Source of the DNA: a virus | Virus record (IMG/VR): IMGVR_UViG_3300030012_002384 | Span: 1 to 20,856 of that record | Reading direction: 5' to 3' (one strand) | DNA: 20,856 nt | In this document: one piece after another, positions 6,620-18,576 of the stretch | Numbering within the stretch: position 1 is the stretch's first letter | Layout: each line of letters starts with the position of its first letter | Notes under the pieces: generated by a model | Told to the model about the DNA's origin: nothing | Database searches by the model: none | What the model saw: only the letters and a program-made list of their open reading frames with translations | Made by a program: the position numbers and the translations under genes

Positions 6620-8673
6620 TATTTCGGTCCTATCCCAACCGGTCTGCCTTGTACTGCTTCAAGCGCTAATTCTTGCTCGTTTAGTTCGAGTTGTGATTTT
6701 TTCAATTCTAAATCTTTGTTTTTGAGTGCTAAGTTTATTGCAGCTTCTTCTTGTTTCAGCTTCAATTCTTGTGCTTTTATCTCGGTTTCAATTTGTAATT
6801 CTTGTGCTTGAAGTTGTAGTTTTTGTAATTCAACTTGTGCTTTTTGAGCTTGTACTTTCTCCTCAACTGTAGGTTGCGGTGGTTGAGGTGGTGGCATCAT
6901 AGCAGGATTTGATATGAATGTATCAGTATTTTTATAACCAGCTTGTGCTATAAACTCACTAACTGCATTGTATATATTCTGTGGTTGCACTAATGTACCC
7001 ATACCACCTTGTTGCACCAAAGTGCTTATAATTTGCATAATACTAGACATTACTTGCATTTTGCTTTGTTGTGAGCCACTTCCTACACCTACACTAACTG
7101 TGCAGTTTAGTTTTTCTTTCCATCTCGATACATCAATCGGTACAAATTTACCATTGAGATAAAACATTTTCTCACGATCCTCGTATCTCTGGACAAGCGA
7201 GTAGATGTTTCTGAATAAATCTTTTACCCCTGTTTCTGCAAAAATACGAGCAATAAGCTCGATTCTTTGTGTTGCTGACTCTGTTGCTGCTGATATCGCC
7301 CCAGAGGTTACATGAGATGTCAATACGTCAGGATTCAGTCCTTGTGTCATTTTAGATACACCTGACCTTTCTTCCCTAATGCCATCTAAGTATCTGACCA
7401 TATCGAAAGCATAAGGTTGTATTTGTGGTGTCGGCAAAGCAGTTACAGCATTTGGACTTCTCATTCTGACAATACCACCCGGTCTTGATGTCAATAAATC
7501 ATCGAGTTCTACTTGCCCTGCTAAAACCGCATACCTTGCATTGTTGGTTAGATACATATTGTCTAACAGGTTTCTCATAATCGTTGATTTGATAAGCTGT
7601 ATATCGCTTACAGTATCAGCAATACTCATGCCATAAAACTTATGTGGTATCGGTATTGGGCAGATAGCTGAGAAAGGAATCATGTCTATCTCGATATTGT
7701 CCAATATATAACTACCACCTTTGGTAATCTTTCTAAGTTCGGCAATCCCATCGCCATCGAAGTCGAGTCTTATGTAACACTCGTCAATCCAAACCTTTTT
7801 GTTCGGTCCTTCACCTTCTGATGGTGGTACTGAATCATCATCGTAGCTAAACCTTGCTAGTCTTTCCTCGTTCAATTCAGCTTCGGAACTCATGTAGCTT
7901 GGTATATCTTCGATTACTTTAGGATCGTAACCTTCTTGTATTAGCTCACTTACAGTCTTTTTTACTCTATGGCATACAAACTGAGCATCGTGTAGATCAA
8001 CCGCCCTTCTCGACACCAAAAACTCCTCTGGTGGTACAGCTAAGACTCTTACTTGTCCGCTTGTTGTAGTTCTTTGTACTTTTACATCGTGGCTTTTGAT
8101 TTCAGGGCTAATCATTATGCCATTTTCATCTGACTGTGCTTTTTGTATTAGTGTTTCAGTATGTTCTAATACTTCAAGATCATCATTGGCGAGTATGGCT
8201 TGATACTCGATTTCAGTCAGATTTGTGTAATCTTCTTTGGTAACTTCTGTTTTTTCTTCCCAATAATGCTTGATTATGCCTGTTTTGCTGATAAGTGCGT
8301 CTTTGAAAGCATCATACAGCACCTTAAAGCCATTATTTTGGCGCATAAAGACATAATTGACGTAATCGGTGGCTTGTCTAGCCATCTCGACATCCTCTGG
8401 TCCTTGTGGCTCAAATTCAGCGATGTTGTTGTGTGTAGTAAATATGCGCATAAGCGATGGCATAATATACTCAATCGTATCTCTTACATCGGTGGTAACA
8501 ATCTCTGATCTGCCATCAATCTCATTGCCAAACTTCTCACCAAGATAATATTTCATGGCATCTTCTCTTTGATTTGAGAGTTCGCTGTTAGCATATCCTG
8601 TAGCTGATTGAATTTCTGTGCCTAAATGCGCAACTAATTCGCTTTCAGTCATTATTCTTGGTTTTTTTGCCAT
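6619..8673 (-). CDS. portal protein
   Basis: 684 residues, the size of podovirus/SU10-type portals. The N-terminal half shows portal features: DAMKYYLGEKFGNEIDGRSE, IVTTDVRDTIEYIMPSLMRI, then the acidic insert, VLAVPPEEFLVSRRAVDLHD, a long central helix with KSTIMRNLLDNMYLTNNARY, RPGGIVRMRSPNAVTALPTP and the clip/stem region around MTQGLNPDVLTSHVTSGAIS. The last 80 residues form a Gln/Glu/Lys-rich coiled coil, a barrel-like C-terminal extension. It is the dodecameric ring through which DNA is packaged. AAAAAAGG precedes the ATG, and the gene lies two small genes downstream of the large terminase. Confidence 0.85.
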   Translation of the reverse strand: MAKKPRIMTESELVAHLGTEIQSATGYANSELSNQREDAMKYYLGEKFGNEIDGRSEIVTTDVRDTIEYIMPSLMRIFTTHNNIAEFEPQGPEDVEMARQATDYVNYVFMRQNNGFKVLYDAFKDALISKTGIIKHYWEEKTEVTKEDYTNLTEIEYQAILANDDLEVLEHTETLIQKAQSDENGIMISPEIKSHDVKVQRTTTSGQVRVLAVPPEEFLVSRRAVDLHDAQFVCHRVKKTVSELIQEGYDPKVIEDIPSYMSSEAELNEERLARFSYDDDSVPPSEGEGPNKKVWIDECYIRLDFDGDGIAELRKITKGGSYILDNIEIDMIPFSAICPIPIPHKFYGMSIADTVSDIQLIKSTIMRNLLDNMYLTNNARYAVLAGQVELDDLLTSRPGGIVRMRSPNAVTALPTPQIQPYAFDMVRYLDGIREERSGVSKMTQGLNPDVLTSHVTSGAISAATESATQRIELIARIFAETGVKDLFRNIYSLVQRYEDREKMFYLNGKFVPIDVSRWKEKLNCTVSVGVGSGSQQSKMQVMSSIMQIISTLVQQGGMGTLVQPQNIYNAVSEFIAQAGYKNTDTFISNPAMMPPPQPPQPTVEEKVQAQKAQVELQKLQLQAQELQIETEIKAQELKLKQEEAAINLALKNKDLELKKSQLELNEQELALEAVQGRPVGIGPK

Positions 8674-9056: not shown

Positions 9057-10478
9057 CTAAACTATTGCTACTTTTGGTCCTAAACGACCTTTTTTGTTCC
9101 ATTTTGATGTTTCTGTGGTCGAATGTCTTAGACTCATCACCCCATATCTGGTCGCTGACATCAAATCGTCTTTGAGTTTGACAATTTTGCCATCTTTTCG
9201 GTGATAGAGTCTGTATTCATCAAACCAATCGTATAATGTGTTAAATACTTTGAATCTTCCTTGCTCCATACGAGTAAGCATTTCCATAATTCCTGCTTCA
9301 ACACTATTGCCACCCTTTTTCTCACCTAATGCTGGGGGATTTTCAAAGTGAAAGGGTAGCATATTTACATTTGCTTGGCGGTATTGTTCCGCCAGAGTAA
9401 TTCCTGATCCTTTATCATGCTGGTAGCCATCGTGAGGAAAAGCTATTGGAATGTAATGACTACCTTGTCTTTCGTTGATGTGTGTTGCATGATAATCCGG
9501 TGTCTGTTTAGACATTTTGTAACAATCATAGATATATACAATGTCCTCATCACGATCCCAAGCAACCCATACGACTGCGGTTGGATGGTCGTAACCAAAA
9601 TCAAGACCTGCGATTCGTGCAAAGTGGGTTGGTATTGCGAAAGGTTCACAGGTCAAGCTGTCCTCTGCGACAGGAAATACAAGTCCACTACCAATCATCG
9701 GAATACCTTTGGATCGCATATCCCTTTCATGTGGTGGCAGAGCAGCTAAAATCTGTTGTTTCATATCCTGAGTTAAATGTTCAGCATCTTCCCAACCAGC
9801 AGTTACCAAACCTTGTCCCGGTCTTAAATCGTTAGTAAAGTTTTGCACAACCTCTGTCATGCCTGATTCTGGGGTAAAAGTTAGGTAAACCGCCCCATTT
9901 TTATCTAAAGTCCTCGTTATACATTGAGAGTAGATATCCTGTGGTGGTTCTTCGTCTAGCCAGATCAAATCCAAACTCTCACCCATAAACTTCTCAGCGC
10001 CCATCTCGTATGCTTTGAAGGCAACCCTAGACCACCCACCTGTTTTGTGTTTTACAAGAACTGAGGAATGTGCGTTTGGCACTCCGGGTTTTCTTGTCGT
10101 TTCACCAATGAGATGTTTGGGGATCGAACCTTGCCCTTTATCTCTTGGGTTGTCAGGTTGCCCAAATAATTCTTTTTGACAGATATCTCTAGTGGTTTCA
10201 TTACTCGCACCACATACCCATGCCCTAATGGGTTTATCGTATCTTCTACCTTCCCACCAATCCGGGTATTCACCGGTTAAATGAATAGCAATCTCCATAG
10301 CCCCCACATAAGACTTCCCAACCCTATTCGCTGCCATCAATAGTCTTTGATTAGCTTCCGCACCTAGATCGTGGAAGTTCTTTTGAAATTTATAGGGTTT
10401 GTAATATTTGAGCTTGTTTTCGACTTGCCTTTGTTTGAGGGTTTTAAGGATTTCCTCAACCTTTTTGTTGTCGTCCAT
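9057..10478 (-). CDS. terminase large subunit
   Basis: 473 residues from the ATG at 10478 (AAGGA about 16 bases upstream). A TTG at 10535 would add 19 residues but has no ribosome-binding site. ATPase domain: Walker A AANRVGKS (about 49-56) and Walker B DLIWLDEE (about 170-177), followed by the coupling-type segment VYLTFTPESG. Nuclease domain of RNase H fold: IAGLDFGYDHPTAVVWVAWD with the first catalytic Asp near 293, followed later by YIPIAFPHDG and KLKDDLMSATRYG. It translocates DNA into the prohead through portal and cuts the concatemer. Its usual partner, a small subunit, is not adjacent but about 9 kb away (19244-19741). Confidence 0.9.
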   Translation of the reverse strand: MDDNKKVEEILKTLKQRQVENKLKYYKPYKFQKNFHDLGAEANQRLLMAANRVGKSYVGAMEIAIHLTGEYPDWWEGRRYDKPIRAWVCGASNETTRDICQKELFGQPDNPRDKGQGSIPKHLIGETTRKPGVPNAHSSVLVKHKTGGWSRVAFKAYEMGAEKFMGESLDLIWLDEEPPQDIYSQCITRTLDKNGAVYLTFTPESGMTEVVQNFTNDLRPGQGLVTAGWEDAEHLTQDMKQQILAALPPHERDMRSKGIPMIGSGLVFPVAEDSLTCEPFAIPTHFARIAGLDFGYDHPTAVVWVAWDRDEDIVYIYDCYKMSKQTPDYHATHINERQGSHYIPIAFPHDGYQHDKGSGITLAEQYRQANVNMLPFHFENPPALGEKKGGNSVEAGIMEMLTRMEQGRFKVFNTLYDWFDEYRLYHRKDGKIVKLKDDLMSATRYGVMSLRHSTTETSKWNKKGRLGPKVAIV

Positions 10479-10542
10479 ATTCAGGGCATAGTTGTCCTTA
10501 GTTTCGATTATAGTTTTTTTAATTATTGTTTGCAATAGCCCA

Positions 10543-10571
10543 CATATAAATTGGTTTAGTGTTAAGGTAAA
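10543..10571 (-). promoter_or_regulatory. candidate leftward promoter for terminase/late genes
   Basis: On the minus strand TTTACC (plus 10566-10571) and TATATG (plus 10543-10548) are separated by 17 bases. Each matches sigma70 consensus at four of six positions. A TTAAGGTA element (10562-10569, plus strand) overlaps the -35, so a factor bound there could control it. Weak evidence. Confidence 0.3.
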
Positions 10572-10590
10572 AGCAATATTTCCGATGAGA

Positions 10591-10612
10591 ATAGGGATAA
10601 GACTATTCCTAT
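10591..10612. other. hairpin upstream of terminase gene
   Basis: ATAGGGATA (10591-10599), loop AGAC, TATTCCTAT (10604-10612): nine pairs with one G-T. There is no T run after it in either direction, so a leader structure or protein site is more likely than a terminator. Confidence 0.45.
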
Positions 10613-10722
10613 ATTCATATCTGACTCAGGGGGTTGCCTACCTGACCTGTTCATGCTCTGGTTCTACGATCTGGTTTGCTAGTACCAAACATAGTCTTTG
10701 CTCAACCCTAGTTTACCATACT

Positions 10723-10785
10723 GTGTTATTAAGGTAAAGAAATATAATTGCAATTAAGGTAATTATTTATCTTGTAGTTAAGGTA
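10723..10785 (+). repeat. three tandem TTAAGGTA elements
   Basis: Three related 14-mers end at 10736, 10761 and 10785: GTGTTATTAAGGTA, TTGCAATTAAGGTA and TTGTAGTTAAGGTA. The cores start at 10729, 10754 and 10778, spaced 25 and 24 bp, so all face nearly the same side of the helix after a bit over two turns. This iteron-like or operator-like array leads into a promoter at its right end. Confidence 0.75.
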
Positions 10786-10800
10786 TTGACATGTTACAAT
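10768..10800 (+). promoter_or_regulatory. rightward promoter with TTAAGGTA element
   Basis: TATCTTGTAGTTAAGGTA is followed nine bases later by TACAAT (10795-10800). Read as a sigma70 promoter, TTGTAG (10772-10777) is 17 bases from TACAAT. No gene begins for about 440 bases, so it would make a long leader or a non-coding RNA. Confidence 0.5.
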
Positions 10801-10824
10801 TAGGTGAGGGAGAAATTATATTTG

Positions 10825-10838
10825 GTCTAGCGCTAGAC
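10825..10838. promoter_or_regulatory. 14-bp perfect palindrome, operator candidate
   Basis: GTCTAGCGCTAGAC is its own reverse complement. It lies just downstream of the -10 at 10795-10800, where a dimeric repressor would block transcription. Confidence 0.45.
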
Positions 10839-10869
10839 TAGATGAGATCTAAAGATATTCCGGGCTAAT

Positions 10870-10881
10870 TAGAAATTTCTA
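10870..10881. promoter_or_regulatory. 12-bp perfect palindrome, operator candidate
   Basis: TAGAAATTTCTA is self-complementary and its right half overlaps the -10 of the possible leftward promoter at 10876-10903. Its centre is 44 bp from that of the 10825-10838 palindrome. Confidence 0.4.
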
Positions 10882-10903
10882 GCAGAAAAAGAGTGTGTGT
10901 CAA
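10876..10903 (-). promoter_or_regulatory. candidate leftward promoter
   Basis: On the minus strand TTGACA (plus 10898-10903) matches the -35 consensus fully. TAGAAA (plus 10876-10881) lies 16 bases away and matches the -10 at four of six. It would transcribe toward the terminase and head genes. Confidence 0.35.
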
Positions 10904-11132
10904 TTATAGTCTTTTTACCTGAACAACATAAAATATTATCACTAACTTGGCTAAAGAAGAACGAATCATAATGCCTTTTAAAATCTAGTTACTCTAATCT
11001 AGTATCTCTTATATCTCTATGTGTAGAATATCAATGAATTAGCCCCTTTTCGGCGATTCTGATGGCTATTACCGGGCATTATTTTTTATTGGACATGACA
11101 AACCATGAGCTGTTGTGATCTGGGTAATTATT

Positions 11133-11169
11133 TTGTTATTAAGGTACGATATATCTTGTAATTAAGGTA
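11133..11169 (+). repeat. two tandem TTAAGGTA elements
   Basis: TTGTTATTAAGGTA (11133-11146) and TTGTAATTAAGGTA (11156-11169), 23 bp apart. The second is the -35 part of the promoter that follows. The first has no -10 at a proper distance and is likely an extra binding site. Confidence 0.75.
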
Positions 11170-11183
11170 CAATATCGTATAAT
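11152..11183 (+). promoter_or_regulatory. rightward promoter for the 11246 operon
   Basis: TATCTTGTAATTAAGGTA (11152-11169) is followed eight bases later by a perfect TATAAT (11178-11183). TTGTAA to TATAAT spacing is 16 bases. It lies about 60 bases before the ATG at 11246. The same 18 bases recur exactly at 18544-18561 before another gene. Confidence 0.7.
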
Positions 11184-11245
11184 ACTTACATAAGGAAATA
11201 ATTAATTGGATGTAGGATCATCCGGGAAAAACAAAGGAGTCAATT

Positions 11246-11740: not shown

Positions 11741-11933
11741 CACCACTTGCCAATATTATCGTGCCAACTGCATTAATCAATATGATTGAATAGTCTTTCC
11801 AAAGCACACCAACCCATAACCACCCTAATACACCTATAAGTTGGATATATAAGTTCAATGGGTAGATATTGAGTGCAGTTAGGCACAATCCACTTGATAA
11901 TATAATTGAGCTAGTCCACTTTAGTATGTTCAT
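11724..11933 (-). CDS. small membrane protein, three hydrophobic segments
   Basis: 69 residues, almost entirely hydrophobic: ILKWTSSIILSSGLCLTALN, then LYIQLIGVLGWLWVGVLWKD and SIILINAVGTIILASGVIYS, consistent with three transmembrane helices joined by short loops such as YPLN and WKDY. I recall similar small inner-membrane proteins in marine phages and bacteria without known function. It overlaps the end of the methyltransferase gene by 23 bases, so it is the last gene of the leftward modification operon. Role unknown; superinfection or lysis functions are possible. Confidence 0.65.
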   Translation of the reverse strand: MNILKWTSSIILSSGLCLTALNIYPLNLYIQLIGVLGWLWVGVLWKDYSIILINAVGTIILASGVIYSW

Positions 11934-12720
11934 CTTCTGCTTCTAATATCGCAAGTCCAATTTGATAAGCAATCTGTGGCACAATCGCATTACCTAGTCC
12001 TTTAAGTCTGTCCACCCTATCGGAAACCCCATGAGCCACTCTACCCACATTGGGTTCAGATGACCACCACGAGGTTTGTCTGTGTATGCCGCTTCTGTTT
12101 CCCACATTTCTTGTGGTTTCGGATAAACCACTTGCTCTCTGAGAGTCGAGTGTTCTGTTCTGCCCTTGCGATTCTTGTCGTATTGTTTCTTTAATGCTTT
12201 TTCGCTTCTTGGTGGCAGAGAATCCATTGAGTTTGGAGTATGCCACAATCCAGACTCTATATCTTTGATGGGGAGCATTAACTGCTGAAGCTGGAATAAT
12301 AAACGATTGGACTTCGTAACCTTCGTTTTCCAAGTCAGTACACACTTGTTCGAATACCATGCCGTCTTGGATTGAAGTAAGATTCCTGACATTTTCGCCA
12401 ATAACCCATCTTGGTTTCGATGCTTTGATAACTCGTAACATTTCTGACCAGAGGTGGCGATCATCTTCTGTACCCTTTCTTTTACCTGCAACGCTGAAAG
12501 GTTGGCATGGGAATCCCCCACACACAAGCCCAATTCCATTTGATCTTTTCGGTTCATAATTTTTAATATCTCCTGTAATTGGTACATTCGGAAAGTTTTT
12601 TGCCAAAACCTTTTGACACCATTCGTTATTTTCTACAAATTGAACTGTTTCAAATCCACCTGTACTCTCTAATCCTAAACTAAATCCACCTATGCCGCTA
12701 AATAAATCAATGACTTTCAC
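11911..12720 (-). CDS. DNA cytosine-C5 methyltransferase
   Basis: 269 residues with the C5-methylase motifs in order: I DLFSGIGGFSLG (about 5-16), IV GGFPCQPFS with the catalytic Cys near 72, VI GENVR (108-112), VIII QRYRVWIVA (152-160), IX RVAHGVSDRVDRLKGLGN (227-244) and X GNAIVPQIA (243-251). It transfers methyl groups from SAM to cytosine C5 in DNA, probably shielding phage DNA from host restriction. The target-recognition region (about 161-225) is short and low in recognisable structure, and a second reading frame with its own conserved look runs through it. It overlaps the preceding methylase gene by 14 bases. Confidence 0.9.
   Translation of the reverse strand: MKVIDLFSGIGGFSLGLESTGGFETVQFVENNEWCQKVLAKNFPNVPITGDIKNYEPKRSNGIGLVCGGFPCQPFSVAGKRKGTEDDRHLWSEMLRVIKASKPRWVIGENVRNLTSIQDGMVFEQVCTDLENEGYEVQSFIIPASAVNAPHQRYRVWIVAYSKLNGFSATKKRKSIKETIRQESQGQNRTLDSQRASGLSETTRNVGNRSGIHRQTSWWSSEPNVGRVAHGVSDRVDRLKGLGNAIVPQIAYQIGLAILEAEDEHTKVD
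11994..12464 (-). CDS. nested +1-frame gene inside the methyltransferase
   Basis: Entirely inside the C5-methylase gene, one base forward in frame. The start chosen is the ATG at 12464, with AAAGGG eight bases upstream; the frame stays open back to 12587. The 156-residue product contains LTWKTKVTKSNRLLFQLQQL, then ESGLWHTPNSMDSLPPRSEK, RKGRTEHSTLREQV and the C-terminal LNPMWVEWLMGFPIGWTDLK. These pieces match, from memory, a conserved C-terminal or companion module of phage cytosine methylases; random out-of-frame translation would not be expected to look like this. It may be a separate protein or be joined to the methylase by a frameshift. Role inferred only: methylation partner. Confidence 0.6.
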   Translation of the reverse strand: MIATSGQKCYELSKHRNQDGLLAKMSGILLQSKTAWYSNKCVLTWKTKVTKSNRLLFQLQQLMLPIKDIESGLWHTPNSMDSLPPRSEKALKKQYDKNRKGRTEHSTLREQVVYPKPQEMWETEAAYTDKPRGGHLNPMWVEWLMGFPIGWTDLKD

Positions 12721-13330
12721 TATAATTCAATATCTCCTTGATAAGCAAAGGTGGAACTGCACCTTTTGCTGCTCCTTTAACACCTTGCAACCCTGTAGTC
12801 GCACCTCTCGGAGCTAGTTCGTGGCAAGACATTCCGGCTTTACAACTTTTAGCGACCATTTGCCAATTAGGATTGTTCGACCAGATATCAGTTGGTTTCA
12901 TATATTTAAATCCATATTGGCAATATGTTACTGTAGTGTATGGATAAGGTATAAGGTTCATTTTTCTTAACATGGCTCTAGGATTTTCGATGTAAAAGTA
13001 TTTAGGATTTAGTTCTTGTATGACTTTGACTGTTTTTTTAACAATTTCCATCGCATGATAAGTTTCTTCATTTTTAGGTGTGAATGGTCCATTTTTTTTA
13101 CCTTCCCAATTACGACCAAGAGCAGCTACACTAAATTTCTGACAAGGTGGACTCGCCCATATAATATCAGGCTTGTAATCTCCTAAAATAGATACATCAA
13201 AATCCATGATGTCCATTGTAAAATCAGCATTAAACTGATTTTCATTATCTAATGTTTTAGTTTCATAACCAAACTCTTTAGCTACTTTACTAAAACTTTT
13301 TGTGCCACAAAATAATTCTAATGTTTTCAT
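12707..13330 (-). CDS. second C5-methyltransferase-like protein
   Basis: 207 residues. Motif I is LELFCGTKSFSKVA (4-17), motif IV ASPPCQKFSVA with Cys near 63, motif VI IENPRAML (114-121; ENP instead of the usual ENV), and a motif X-like GAAKGAVPPLLIKEIL at the end. There is no obvious QxRxR motif VIII or recognition domain, so it is a compact variant that I recall from phages as 'DNA cytosine methyltransferase'. It overlaps the next methylase by 14 bases. It might methylate alone, pair with its neighbour, or have altered chemistry. AGGT lies five bases before the ATG. Confidence 0.75.
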   Translation of the reverse strand: MKTLELFCGTKSFSKVAKEFGYETKTLDNENQFNADFTMDIMDFDVSILGDYKPDIIWASPPCQKFSVAALGRNWEGKKNGPFTPKNEETYHAMEIVKKTVKVIQELNPKYFYIENPRAMLRKMNLIPYPYTTVTYCQYGFKYMKPTDIWSNNPNWQMVAKSCKAGMSCHELAPRGATTGLQGVKGAAKGAVPPLLIKEILNYSESH

Positions 13331-13349
13331 CTATTACCTATTTTAGATA
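13325..13349. repeat. 25-bp direct repeat, copy 1 (flanks PP-loop gene)
   Basis: Begins TTTCATCTATTACC and ends TATTTTAGATA; matches 14135-14159 at 23 of 25 positions. The offset between copies is 810 bp. Each copy contains a ribosome-binding site and start codon of the gene downstream on the minus strand. Confidence 0.8.
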
Positions 13350-14140
13350 TTACAAACTTCACAAGAACCTTGATCTTCATCGTACATTTCGTACTTTACA
13401 CCCAATTCTTTTTCTAAATCTTTAATAAATTTAAGTTGTTTTTGCCCAAATTCAGTATTAAATTCTTCTGTTTGTTTTTTCTTACTAGCTAACAAGCAAG
13501 GATAACAACCCACTCTATTACAACCCTCATCATATAATGAATTATATTCCCAACCATAGCTTTCGATATGGTCAAAACAATCTTGTGTATCCCAATCCAT
13601 AATAGGAAATCTTAAATTTACATTTTTGTCTAATGTTTTTGGTGTTGCACTAAACACTTCTTTATAACTATGAATTTCAGCAGAATCTAGCTCACCATAT
13701 TTCTTCTTTCTTTGGTAACTCTCATTTGATCTGATACCCAACCAAATTTGACCTTTTCTATTTTCGTAAAATCCCATTTTTTTAAACCACCTATTAACAG
13801 CAGTTTCTTTAAATCTAGCTGTGCAATGTCTTAAAATTCTGTTAGGGAATTTTTTTGTCCTTTTTATTAAATCATACATGGTCGGTGCTTCATTATAGCT
13901 TGTGTGCTGTATTTCAATGTTAGACTTTTCCTGTAAATAATCTAAATATTTATAAGTCTTAGGGTGATCCCACCCTGTATTGTAATGTAAGGGTATTATT
14001 TTTTTCTTATCAAAATGCTGTAATGCAAGTATAAAGGTAGCTGTACTATCTTTCCCACCAGACACAGGCACTATAATCTCGCTATCTGTTGGGATATGCT
14101 TGAATGTTCTTTGTGCAAATCCAAATTTCTCTTGTTTCAT
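13343..14140 (-). CDS. PP-loop ATPase, PAPS-reductase-like (DndC-like?)
   Basis: 265 residues. The PP-loop SGGKDS is at 27-32, and HYNTGWDHPKTYKYLDYL follows as in PAPS reductases. Conserved RHCTARFK has Cys near 106, IWLGIRSNES follows, and a cluster GCNRVGCYPC (Cys 207, 212, 215) and a C-terminal CEVC (260, 263) give enough Cys for a metal or Fe-S site. Family chemistry: adenylation or sulfur transfer. Next to two methylases it might take part in DNA modification, but phage PAPS-reductase homologues also occur alone. The gene is bracketed by 25-bp direct repeats, and its ATG overlaps the previous stop. Confidence 0.75.
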   Translation of the reverse strand: MKQEKFGFAQRTFKHIPTDSEIIVPVSGGKDSTATFILALQHFDKKKIIPLHYNTGWDHPKTYKYLDYLQEKSNIEIQHTSYNEAPTMYDLIKRTKKFPNRILRHCTARFKETAVNRWFKKMGFYENRKGQIWLGIRSNESYQRKKKYGELDSAEIHSYKEVFSATPKTLDKNVNLRFPIMDWDTQDCFDHIESYGWEYNSLYDEGCNRVGCYPCLLASKKKQTEEFNTEFGQKQLKFIKDLEKELGVKYEMYDEDQGSCEVCNI

Positions 14141-15533: not shown

Positions 15534-15890
15534 TTAGTTTCCTTTATTGTACCAATCTTTTTCTTTTCTTGTATTCGCACTAATGGTCCGCCATATATCT
15601 AGCTTTGCCATTTCCAAATCGAGTCTGCGCTTATATTTTTTGTGTTTTTCGATAGCTTTAGCAACTTTTTCTTTCGCATTTATAACCTCAATGTTAGTGT
15701 TTGCCATTGCTTCTCTTTGTCTTTGTGTGCCTTCTATTTGACAAGCATGGAGATATTCTTGATCTAATATTTGTTTCGCTTCTTCTTTTAACAGAAACAA
15801 CTCCGCTTCTGCTTTGGCTTCTTCTTCGCCAAGTTTTCTAATAAAATCACATTGTTTTTCGAGTTCTTCTTCTGATAATCTTAGTGTCAT
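15534..15890 (-). CDS. coiled-coil hypothetical protein
   Basis: 118 residues. Nearly all is helical, with heptads: MTLRLSEEELEKQCDFIRKL, KAEAELFLLKEEAKQILDQE, then VAKAIEKHKKYKRRLDLEMA and the end DIWRTISANTRKEKDWYNKG. Its ATG overlaps the stop of the replication-loader-like gene, suggesting a linked function. I recall similar coiled-coil proteins next to replication genes, with no known activity. Confidence 0.65.
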   Translation of the reverse strand: MTLRLSEEELEKQCDFIRKLGEEEAKAEAELFLLKEEAKQILDQEYLHACQIEGTQRQREAMANTNIEVINAKEKVAKAIEKHKKYKRRLDLEMAKLDIWRTISANTRKEKDWYNKGN

Positions 15891-16336
15891 TTTTTTAATC
15901 CTATCAATTTATTTTTGATTTTGTCAGGTAATTTAACAAAACTCTCTTTGGTTTTATGGTTTTGGTATAACTCTGTGAAAATTACTAATTTCTGCTCAAA
16001 CTCTTTCTCTGTTGATTTTCTTAGTGATTTCCTACCCATGATGTCAATGATTTTGTCAGCTAAGTCATCGTTTAATGGTTTTCTATCAAAGAATTTTTGG
16101 AATTTTTCTCTTAAATTGAGGTCTTGTTTTTTAAGATGTTTGATTAAGTGCGCTGGTACTTGTGGCTTCCATTCATCGACTTTGCTGTGTTCAATAAATG
16201 CCACCACCAAATCCTGATAATCGAAATCTCTGAGTGCTGCCCAAAATACAGCTTTTTGAGTCATATTGTACTTAGGTTGACTAGGATATGACTCATCTAT
16301 CCTTCGCATCAATGTTTTAAATTGTTCTTCTAACAT
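15887..16336 (-). CDS. possible replication/helicase-loader protein
   Basis: 149 residues with AAGGAGATA before the ATG. The N-terminal part, LMRRIDESYPSQPKYNMTQK then AVFWAALRDFDYQDLVVAFI and VPAHLIKHL, resembles the short helical domain of helicase loaders such as G39P-type proteins (a 'YP...T...W...L.D..Y......A' pattern). A basic helical C-terminus follows. It is the first gene leftward from the AT-rich candidate origin, which fits replication initiation. No ATPase motif is present, and the replicative helicase and primase are outside the window. The family link is weak. Confidence 0.45.
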   Translation of the reverse strand: MLEEQFKTLMRRIDESYPSQPKYNMTQKAVFWAALRDFDYQDLVVAFIEHSKVDEWKPQVPAHLIKHLKKQDLNLREKFQKFFDRKPLNDDLADKIIDIMGRKSLRKSTEKEFEQKLVIFTELYQNHKTKESFVKLPDKIKNKLIGLKK

Positions 16337-16364
16337 TATCTCCTTGCCTGATCCGGGATATTGC

Positions 16365-16431
16365 TAGTTATATATTATTAATATAATTATATTATTTATA
16401 TTATATATATATATTAATAATAATATAACTA
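16365..16431. other. AT-rich inverted repeat, candidate origin or unwinding element
   Basis: 61 consecutive bases (16368-16428) are only A or T. They lie within an inverted repeat: left arm TAGTTATATATTATTAATATA (16365-16385, 21 nt) pairs with 16410-16431 (22 nt) with one single-base bulge. Located between divergent operons, next to a helicase-loader-like gene and recombination genes, it is the best replication-origin candidate here. AT-rich divergent promoters could explain part of the composition. Confidence 0.55.
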
Positions 16432-16484
16432 CAATGTAAAAGTAAAGGTTGAATTAACGACAATATTGTAGTAATTTAGAATTG

Positions 16485-16551
16485 CTAGATGATGATTTGA
16501 GTAAAAATCTAAATGATCTGGGGGATTTTCACTTAGGGTATCATCATCTAG
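16485..16551. repeat. 12-bp inverted repeat CTAGATGATGAT, 43-bp loop
   Basis: CTAGATGATGAT at 16485-16496 and its exact complement ATCATCATCTAG at 16540-16551. The loop contains a GC-richer patch (CTGGGGGATTTTC). It sits 54 bases after the AT-rich repeat and 53 bases before the annealing-protein ATG, so it could be an initiator or regulator binding site. Confidence 0.55.
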
Positions 16552-16603
16552 TCCTAGATATCCCAGACAAAATAATTCCAGATCGTAAAAATAAGGAGCA
16601 ATT

Positions 16604-17170
16604 ATGCCTAATTTAACCTACAAAGAGGTTTGGGATGTTCTGTCAAAAAAAGATTGTACACCACATCACGAAATTATACCTCTTAAATACCAAACAAAAG
16701 ATGGCAAAACAGAACTTACTTACATTTCTTGGACCGGAGCTTGGAAAATGCTGATGGAAAGTTATCCACAAGCAACTTATGAGTTTCCAGAGGAGAAGGT
16801 GTTGCCGAATGGTTCGGTTACTGTCTTTTGTATAGTCAGGATTGAAAATCTTTCAAGAGAAATGTGGTTGCCGGTTTATGATAATCGGTATCAAAGCATA
16901 ACTAACCCCACATCTGCACAAATCAGCAACACAAGGATGAGGTGCTTAGTTAAATGTATTGCTATGTATGGACTTGGTTTATACATCTATGATGGCGAAG
17001 ATTTGCCTGAAAAACCAAATAAACCTAAAGAATCAGTAAAAGCTGATCCTCATGTTCAAGAAGTAGCCAATGCAAAAGGCAAAGAAAAAACTAAAATTTT
17101 ACAAAAAAAACTTAAATCAGGGGAAATAAATGAAGAAACAGACACAATCGGACTCGGAAATGCACTCTGA
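16604..17170 (+). CDS. single-strand annealing protein (DUF1071, Sak3-like)
   Basis: 188 residues. The N-terminal 140 are characteristic: LTYKEVWDVLSKKDCTPHHE, TELTYISWTGAWKMLMESYP, VTVFCIVRIENLSREMWLPV, then NTRMRCLVKCIAMYGLGLYI and YDGEDLP. These are the DUF1071 signature of phage recombinases that pair single strands during recombination-dependent replication. A Lys-rich tail follows. Ribosome-binding site AAGGAG is 5 bases before the ATG. The partner exonuclease overlaps its end by 41 bases, the usual SSAP-exonuclease pairing. It acts on ssDNA in the cytoplasm. Confidence 0.85.
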   Translation: MPNLTYKEVWDVLSKKDCTPHHEIIPLKYQTKDGKTELTYISWTGAWKMLMESYPQATYEFPEEKVLPNGSVTVFCIVRIENLSREMWLPVYDNRYQSITNPTSAQISNTRMRCLVKCIAMYGLGLYIYDGEDLPEKPNKPKESVKADPHVQEVANAKGKEKTKILQKKLKSGEINEETDTIGLGNAL

Positions 17171-17897
17171 GGGCAAAAAAACATACAGGATTAGCTCATC
17201 AAATGGCGCTAATTATGTATATGGTCATTACAAAGCTCGGAATACTCAGATATCAGAAGATAGAGAGGGTAAAGTTGAGGACCTTTCGGACAACCCATTA
17301 GTAACTTATGGAAACGATAACGAGAAATATGGGGTGGCAGCTTTTATAAAAAAAACGAAAACTGTTCCTGAATACATACTTGCCGACCAAGATCGTGATA
17401 GATTTGTCGTCAAAGATTGGTTAAAACTTGGTGATAAAGCTGATGCAATCATTGATATATCGGCTACACCTGATGGTTTAGTCAATAAAACATCTATTTT
17501 GGAAATAAAATGCCCAGATATGGGTAATTCTTGTTTCGATAAAGATGGCAAAGACAACACATTTGGTGTGCCGAAGAATGGATTTCCGATCCAATATCTA
17601 TGTCAATTAGCTATGCAACAAGCTGTTATGAATATGATGGTAGATGCTGATGGCGGACATATATACAAAATACAAAGGTCTTACTTGTTAGGTTGGTCGC
17701 CAAACAGGACAAGAATATGGGAATACAAATATAATCAGGAATTTATTGATTGGATTTGTAAGCAACTAGAGGAATATTCTTTATGTTTGATAGATGGCGA
17801 GAAAGTTAAGCCAAAACCAGACGATTATAAAGATATCGTGGTCGCAGAGTACGAAAACATTAAGCTGAAATGGGATTCAGCAGGAGAAAACACATGA
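17130..17897 (+). CDS. YqaJ-family recombination exonuclease
   Basis: 255 residues. The RecB/YqaJ nuclease core is visible: VTYGNDNEKYGVAAFIKKT (early helix), ISATPDGLV with the metal-binding Asp, SILEIKCPD containing E-x-K, and the QxxxY-like helix IQYLCQLAMQQAVMNMMV. It resects double-stranded ends 5'-3' to give the annealing protein its substrate. GGGGAAATAA precedes the ATG inside the annealing gene. The C-terminal 60 residues are typical of phage YqaJ proteins. ATGA overlap with the next gene completes a compact recombination operon. Confidence 0.8.
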   Translation: MKKQTQSDSEMHSEGKKTYRISSSNGANYVYGHYKARNTQISEDREGKVEDLSDNPLVTYGNDNEKYGVAAFIKKTKTVPEYILADQDRDRFVVKDWLKLGDKADAIIDISATPDGLVNKTSILEIKCPDMGNSCFDKDGKDNTFGVPKNGFPIQYLCQLAMQQAVMNMMVDADGGHIYKIQRSYLLGWSPNRTRIWEYKYNQEFIDWICKQLEEYSLCLIDGEKVKPKPDDYKDIVVAEYENIKLKWDSAGENT

Positions 17898-18531: not shown

Positions 18532-18543
18532 ATCGAACATAAA

Positions 18544-18576
18544 TATCTTGTAATTAAGGTAAATAAATCCTAATAT
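18544..18576 (+). promoter_or_regulatory. rightward promoter with TTAAGGTA element
   Basis: TATCTTGTAATTAAGGTA (18544-18561) is identical over 18 bases to 11152-11169. TAATAT (18571-18576) lies nine bases downstream, and TTGTAA-to-TAATAT spacing is 17. It precedes the ATG at 18621 by 45 bases, so that gene is controlled with the 11246 operon. Confidence 0.6.

Follow-up and report, generated by a model that had tools for sequence, protein, structure and literature searches.

The DNA analysed here, referred to as the window, spans positions 1-20856 of an IMG/VR virus record 34547 bases long, the remainder of which was read as contig L009. Portal, head, scaffold and terminase genes in the record point to a podovirus-like tailed phage. 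The terminase shares 61% identity with that of Pelagibacter phage Baldr, the closest cultured terminase being that of a Pelagibacter phage, and the portal protein is 39% identical to those of Pseudomonas phages related to PaP3. The source is an uncultivated marine podovirus-like phage, and by DNA similarity the 5-kb region under study shares with cultured phages a single 75-bp patch, located inside sak.

Two operons diverge at the locus (Table 1). A loader-like gene lies to the left on the minus strand, and genes for Sak, an annealing protein, and for an exonuclease of the YqaJ type lie to the right on the plus strand; an earlier note made from the sequence had described a possible helicase-loader gene and an annealing/exonuclease pair here. 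Homologues of the loader-like protein matched phrog_2289, the PHROG helicase-loader family, in five of five cases (best E 1.7e-7), and comparison with the loader of Geobacillus phage TP-84 gave a weak match (E 2e-3). Searches of PDB and Pfam with this gene returned no useful match, a search of the GTDB genome collection found no relatives, and the predicted structure was poor (pLDDT 54.5). Judged by sequence, the 'helicase loader' identity is supported but remote. Profile searches for DnaB_C and DNA_pol_A found nothing in the window's record or in five related records; they covered these two Pfam families only, PF03796 also misses the annotated helicase of Baldr, and the records may be fragments. 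Elsewhere in the left operon, within 11911-14140, are two DNA methyltransferase-like genes (11911-12720 and 12707-13330) and a PAPS-reductase-like gene (13343-14140).

Table 1. Location of the features discussed in the text. Positions without a contig label are those of the window.
Feature	Location	Strand	Details
Noncoding divergent region	10536-11245		710 nt; rival origin location or tandem promoters
Conserved gene, function unassigned	15534-15890	minus	118 aa; second in left operon; weak phrog_1389 match
Loader-like gene	15887-16336	minus	149 aa; remote homologue of SPP1/TP-84-type helicase loader
A/T-only tract, candidate DNA unwinding element	16368-16428		61 nt; based on length, stability, dyad and recurrence
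Weak sigma-70-like promoter candidates, left operon	16411-16446	minus	TTTACT-18-TATTAT, TTTACA-18-TAATAT
Predicted sak operon promoter region	16449-16482	plus	contains palindrome ACAATATTGT at 16460-16469
Long hairpin, predicted	16485-16551	plus	12-bp perfect base stem; GATCTGG in loop; fold z -5.25
TTCCAGATC stretch	16575-16583	plus	just 5' of sak ribosome-binding site
Sak single-strand annealing protein (SSAP)	16604-17170	plus	PF06378, E 1e-40
YqaJ/RecE-like exonuclease	17130-17897	plus	
Predicted leader hairpins, closing stem GGATAGATAG/CTATCTATCC or close variants	L036:13744-13814; L037:13618-13662		
Predicted leader hairpins, GGATAGATAG/CTATCTATCC-type	L047:4228-4269 and 7288-7338; L059:7826-7892 and 9915-9977		
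Predicted leader hairpins, GGATAGATAG/CTATCTATCC-type	L067:5325-5389 and 7607-7669; L085:8834-8934; L089:9960-10117		

The gap between the operons contains the longest pure A/T run of the contig, and the 61-bp stretch described earlier proved exact. The runner-up in the 34.5-kb contig is 25 nt, and the longest run among 200 simulated order-2 Markov contigs was 28 nt. Among 60-bp duplexes of the contig, the tract ranks lowest in stability, at 6.0 SD from the mean compared with 3.0 for the next site. Its imperfect dyad reaches about 16366-16430. The 21/22-nt imperfect inverted repeat attributed to it is present (16369-16389/16393-16413, 81%). A second repeat, at 16373-16395/16400-16422, is longer and better matched (23 nt, 87%). 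In a gapless test the tract hairpin was equalled by 76 of 300 dinucleotide shuffles; by folding energy (z = -2.8), 3 of 200 shuffles were equally good. For a sequence of AT-only composition, the inverted repeat exceeds chance weakly.

Promoter candidates were found on both strands of the gap, in numbers no greater than in shuffled sequence. Transcription from those predicted for the left operon would pass through most of the A/T tract. The predicted sak promoter contains the palindrome ACAATATTGT, probably an operator, which is exact in L003, L004, L012 and L018, carries one mismatch in L019 and L022, and is replaced by ACCTTAATATTCTATTAAGGT in L005. The -10 element of this promoter is uncertain (TAGAAT in the window versus TGGAAT in L003).

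Related contigs were gathered by profile scans with the loader, Sak, YqaJ and the small terminase, and in 29 of them the left genes diverge from the annealing/exonuclease operon as in the window. A/T runs of at least 30 nt were present in the divergent gap of 10 of the 29, with only 2 elsewhere in the same contigs, and in 15 of 29 this gap held the contig's longest A/T run; these counts are somewhat overstated, as they include the near-identical window, L003 and L004, and divergent gaps are AT-rich anyway. L091 adds another gap run of at least 30 nt beyond the ten. The tract accompanies Sak (window, L005) as well as an Erf-family annealing protein (L012, L018), which takes the gene position of Sak in L012 (5173-5718), L018 (5514-6059, assigned by similarity to L012) and L019 (4585-5142). 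It is also found where a 117-aa gene takes the left-hand place and the loader was undetected (L047, L089, L091). The sequence of the tract turns over among relatives; the A/T-only composition is retained. The tract sits close to the left start codon in most lineages (mostly 17-73 nt away), and its distance to the right promoter varies widely between lineages. Folding of the tract gave one imperfect hairpin, which beat shuffles in four of the six lineages examined (z -2.8 to -4.3), the signal being absent from L089 (z +0.46).

Conservation in relatives had been named as a check on the proposed origin. Several contigs have the tract at this place, and it is absent from the divergent gap of all eight members of a loader-bearing sister group that shares the gene order (L032, L034, L040, L043, L045, L051, L068 and L095). 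Phage Baldr (OQ414636), whose annotation includes a primase and a helicase of its own, has no A/T run above 26. AT-rich inverted TATTAGAAT/TACTAATA repeats were observed 3' of the exonuclease operon in three tract-less contigs (L043:9449-9563; L032:5814-5912 and 6728-6783; L051:14011-14040).

The perfect 12-bp inverted repeat that the earlier note placed beside the tract was confirmed, with arms CTAGATGATGAT (16485-16496) and ATCATCATCTAG (16540-16551) set 43 nt apart. No other perfect non-AT inverted repeat in the contig has arms of at least 12 and a spacer of up to 60, and simulation predicts 0.13 such repeats per contig. Its arms form the base of a long predicted hairpin that begins at or just after the predicted sak transcription start. 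In L005 the arms are altered to CAGATAGCG/CGCTATCTG with pairing intact and the GATCTGG loop retained, and on the loader side in L019 and L022 an 11-bp stem shows a paired change (AGAGTAGATAG versus AGAGTAGGTAG); this covariation comes from few sequences, and the sak transcription start is itself predicted. The TTCCAGATC stretch could pair with the GATCTGG loop to give an alternative RNA fold. Copies of TCCAGAT are repeated around both start codons in L005, and in L005 only. Because of its position at the predicted start, the arms that change yet pair in L005 and the similar leader stems in relatives, the palindrome is probably the base stem of a 5' leader hairpin on the sak mRNA. The same observations leave its assignment to the origin unsupported. 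Such a hairpin would act on the transcription, stability or translation of the sak message, and would be an element separate from the melting tract.

Stems with TAGATAG/CTATCTA were found in early-gene leaders of L036, L037, L047, L059, L067, L085, L089 and L024, two apiece in L047, L059 and L067. Leader-stem sites number 13 distinct examples, L019 included, and none was found in shuffled sequence. The window stem has its position in common with this family and not its sequence, and Rfam returned no family above the gathering score for the window or for six relatives. In phage HK022, put RNAs are antitermination leaders that follow PL and PR (PMC9378689). The sak leader resembles them in being a predicted structured RNA near an early transcript start, and the stems of relatives precede more than one early operon; unlike put, it has no sequence match or Rfam hit to it, and stem and loop differ. 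The likeness would be a functional analogy only. A broader proposal, which we regard as unlikely, is that the palindrome belongs to a family of leader RNAs (GGATAGATAG/CTATCTATCC and variants) that open several early transcripts in widespread uncultivated marine phages and, in the manner of put, would modify RNA polymerase or guard early mRNA. Two other RNA features were observed. In L089 a tRNA-Asn(GTT) (10126-10199) directly follows two leader hairpins. A small hairpin with a TAGGAT loop lies 5' of the 11246 gene in the window (11208-11223) and occurs also in L110 and L012, with paired changes in the stem (GGATG/CATCC in the window versus GGAAG/CTTCC in L110 and L012).

Features expected at replication origins were sought around the tract. 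No direct repeats of at least 9 nt (iterons) occur in the intergenic region 16337-16603. One exact DnaA-box 9-mer, TTATCCACA, the only one in the contig, lies at 16762-16770 on the plus strand; it is present in L003 and L004 and missing from L005, and is accordingly weak evidence. A DnaA-dependent origin was rejected, since there is a single box in place of a cluster and the box is not conserved in L005. On either side of the site, GC skew tracks the coding strand, and at fourfold-degenerate positions it vanishes. Gene orientation therefore explains the skew, and a skew switch was discarded as origin evidence; the skew analysis that had been put forward as a check was uninformative, speaking neither for nor against an origin.

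Known phage origins offer partial parallels. The primary origin of T7 consists of promoters followed by an AT-rich stretch. The window likewise has a possible promoter, then an AT-rich stretch, 5' of a gene; unlike in T7, no phage RNA polymerase was recognised and no PolA-type DNA polymerase was found here. In the Bacillus phage SPP1, oriL and oriR go with a gp38 initiator, a gp39 loader and a gp40 helicase. The window is similar in that a candidate AT-rich unwinding element lies near a G39P-like (remote) loader and annealing/exonuclease genes, and use of a host polymerase is presumed. It differs from SPP1, whose origins combine direct repeats with an AT-rich unwinding element (PMC6316719), in that no direct repeats were found beside the AT element and no phage DnaB-type helicase was found, none of the neighbouring genes tested against PHROG, Pfam and NCBIfam matched a gp38-like initiator, and the tract lies in a divergent gap, not within an initiator gene.

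Taken as an origin, the region is possible. The reading we prefer, held tentatively and somewhat short of probable, is that the A/T tract is the unwinding element of a replication origin within an early divergent control region. An initiator or leftward transcription would melt the tract, the phage loader would bring host helicase to it, and the replisome of the host would follow. This candidate is reasonable because the most easily melted, AT-only site lies with a loader-like gene in a phage in which DnaB and PolA were not found, and we rate it no higher because repeats and an initiator are missing and the sister group lacks the tract. The origin originally proposed is partly supported. Its easily melted site beside a loader-like gene is a reasonable candidate, and the tract recurs in several relatives; the role given to the palindrome lacks support, and iterons, an initiator gene and replication-linked skew were sought and not found.

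It is also possible, and nearly as likely, that this is an ordinary gene-control region in which nothing starts replication, made up of divergent early promoters and leaders only. The tract would then hold the left promoter and an A/U-rich untranslated leader that aids translation or keeps the promoter open, and the palindrome would be the sak leader hairpin. Promoter-like sites on both strands, the conserved operator-like ACAATATTGT and the left start codon adjoining the tract all fit such a region, and the sister phages keep promoters without the tract. AT-rich islands mark transcription control regions in SPP1 too (PMC6316719), and the window shares with these its divergent early promoters and operator-like palindrome; unlike them, the tract is longer and purer than promoters need. 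Indeed, the 46-70 nt of pure A/T retained in several lineages exceeds promoter requirements, the promoter sites are no commoner than in shuffles, and the spacing between tract and right promoter is too variable for the tract to be an UP element there.

An origin elsewhere, in the 710-nt noncoding region, is unlikely. Six same-strand copies of TTAAGGTA occur there (10562, 10729, 10754, 10778, 11139 and 11162), partly 23-25 bp apart, and L003 matches the window in both copies and spacing. In the counterpart region of L012 (11274-11418), 3.7 perfect copies of a 23-bp repeat adjoin the second A/T-only run of that contig (48 nt), a classic-looking iteron and AT-rich arrangement. The region in the window, however, contains no extreme AT tract, and a longer motif, TTGTAATTAAGGTA, recurs 5' of gene 18621 and before the TATAAT at 11178, which makes it look like a phage promoter element. 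TTGTAATTAAGGTA was observed in 10536-11245 and at 18540-18560, 5' of plus-strand genes and in places in tandem at 23-25 bp; it is probably a phage promoter element, or else represents iterons. TTAAGGTA too has a promoter-like context, at 18554. Highly improbable, finally, is that the tract plays no part in replication initiation and serves instead in cruciform formation, recombination or packaging, or as the target of a silencer protein. The imperfect hairpin that outdoes shuffles in most of the lineages folded, and the recombination genes that adjoin the tract, speak for such a role; against it, L089 shows no hairpin signal, and the terminase genes lie about 3 kb or farther from the tract.

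Comparison with relatives sets apart two things that the earlier note had joined, an element for melting and a hairpin in an mRNA leader. For this group of uncultivated phages, the leader hairpins that recur offer a regulatory element open to testing. Should the tract prove to be an origin, it would show how a small marine phage in which neither a DnaB helicase nor a PolA polymerase was recognised could enlist the host machinery with scarcely more than a loader and an easily melted site.
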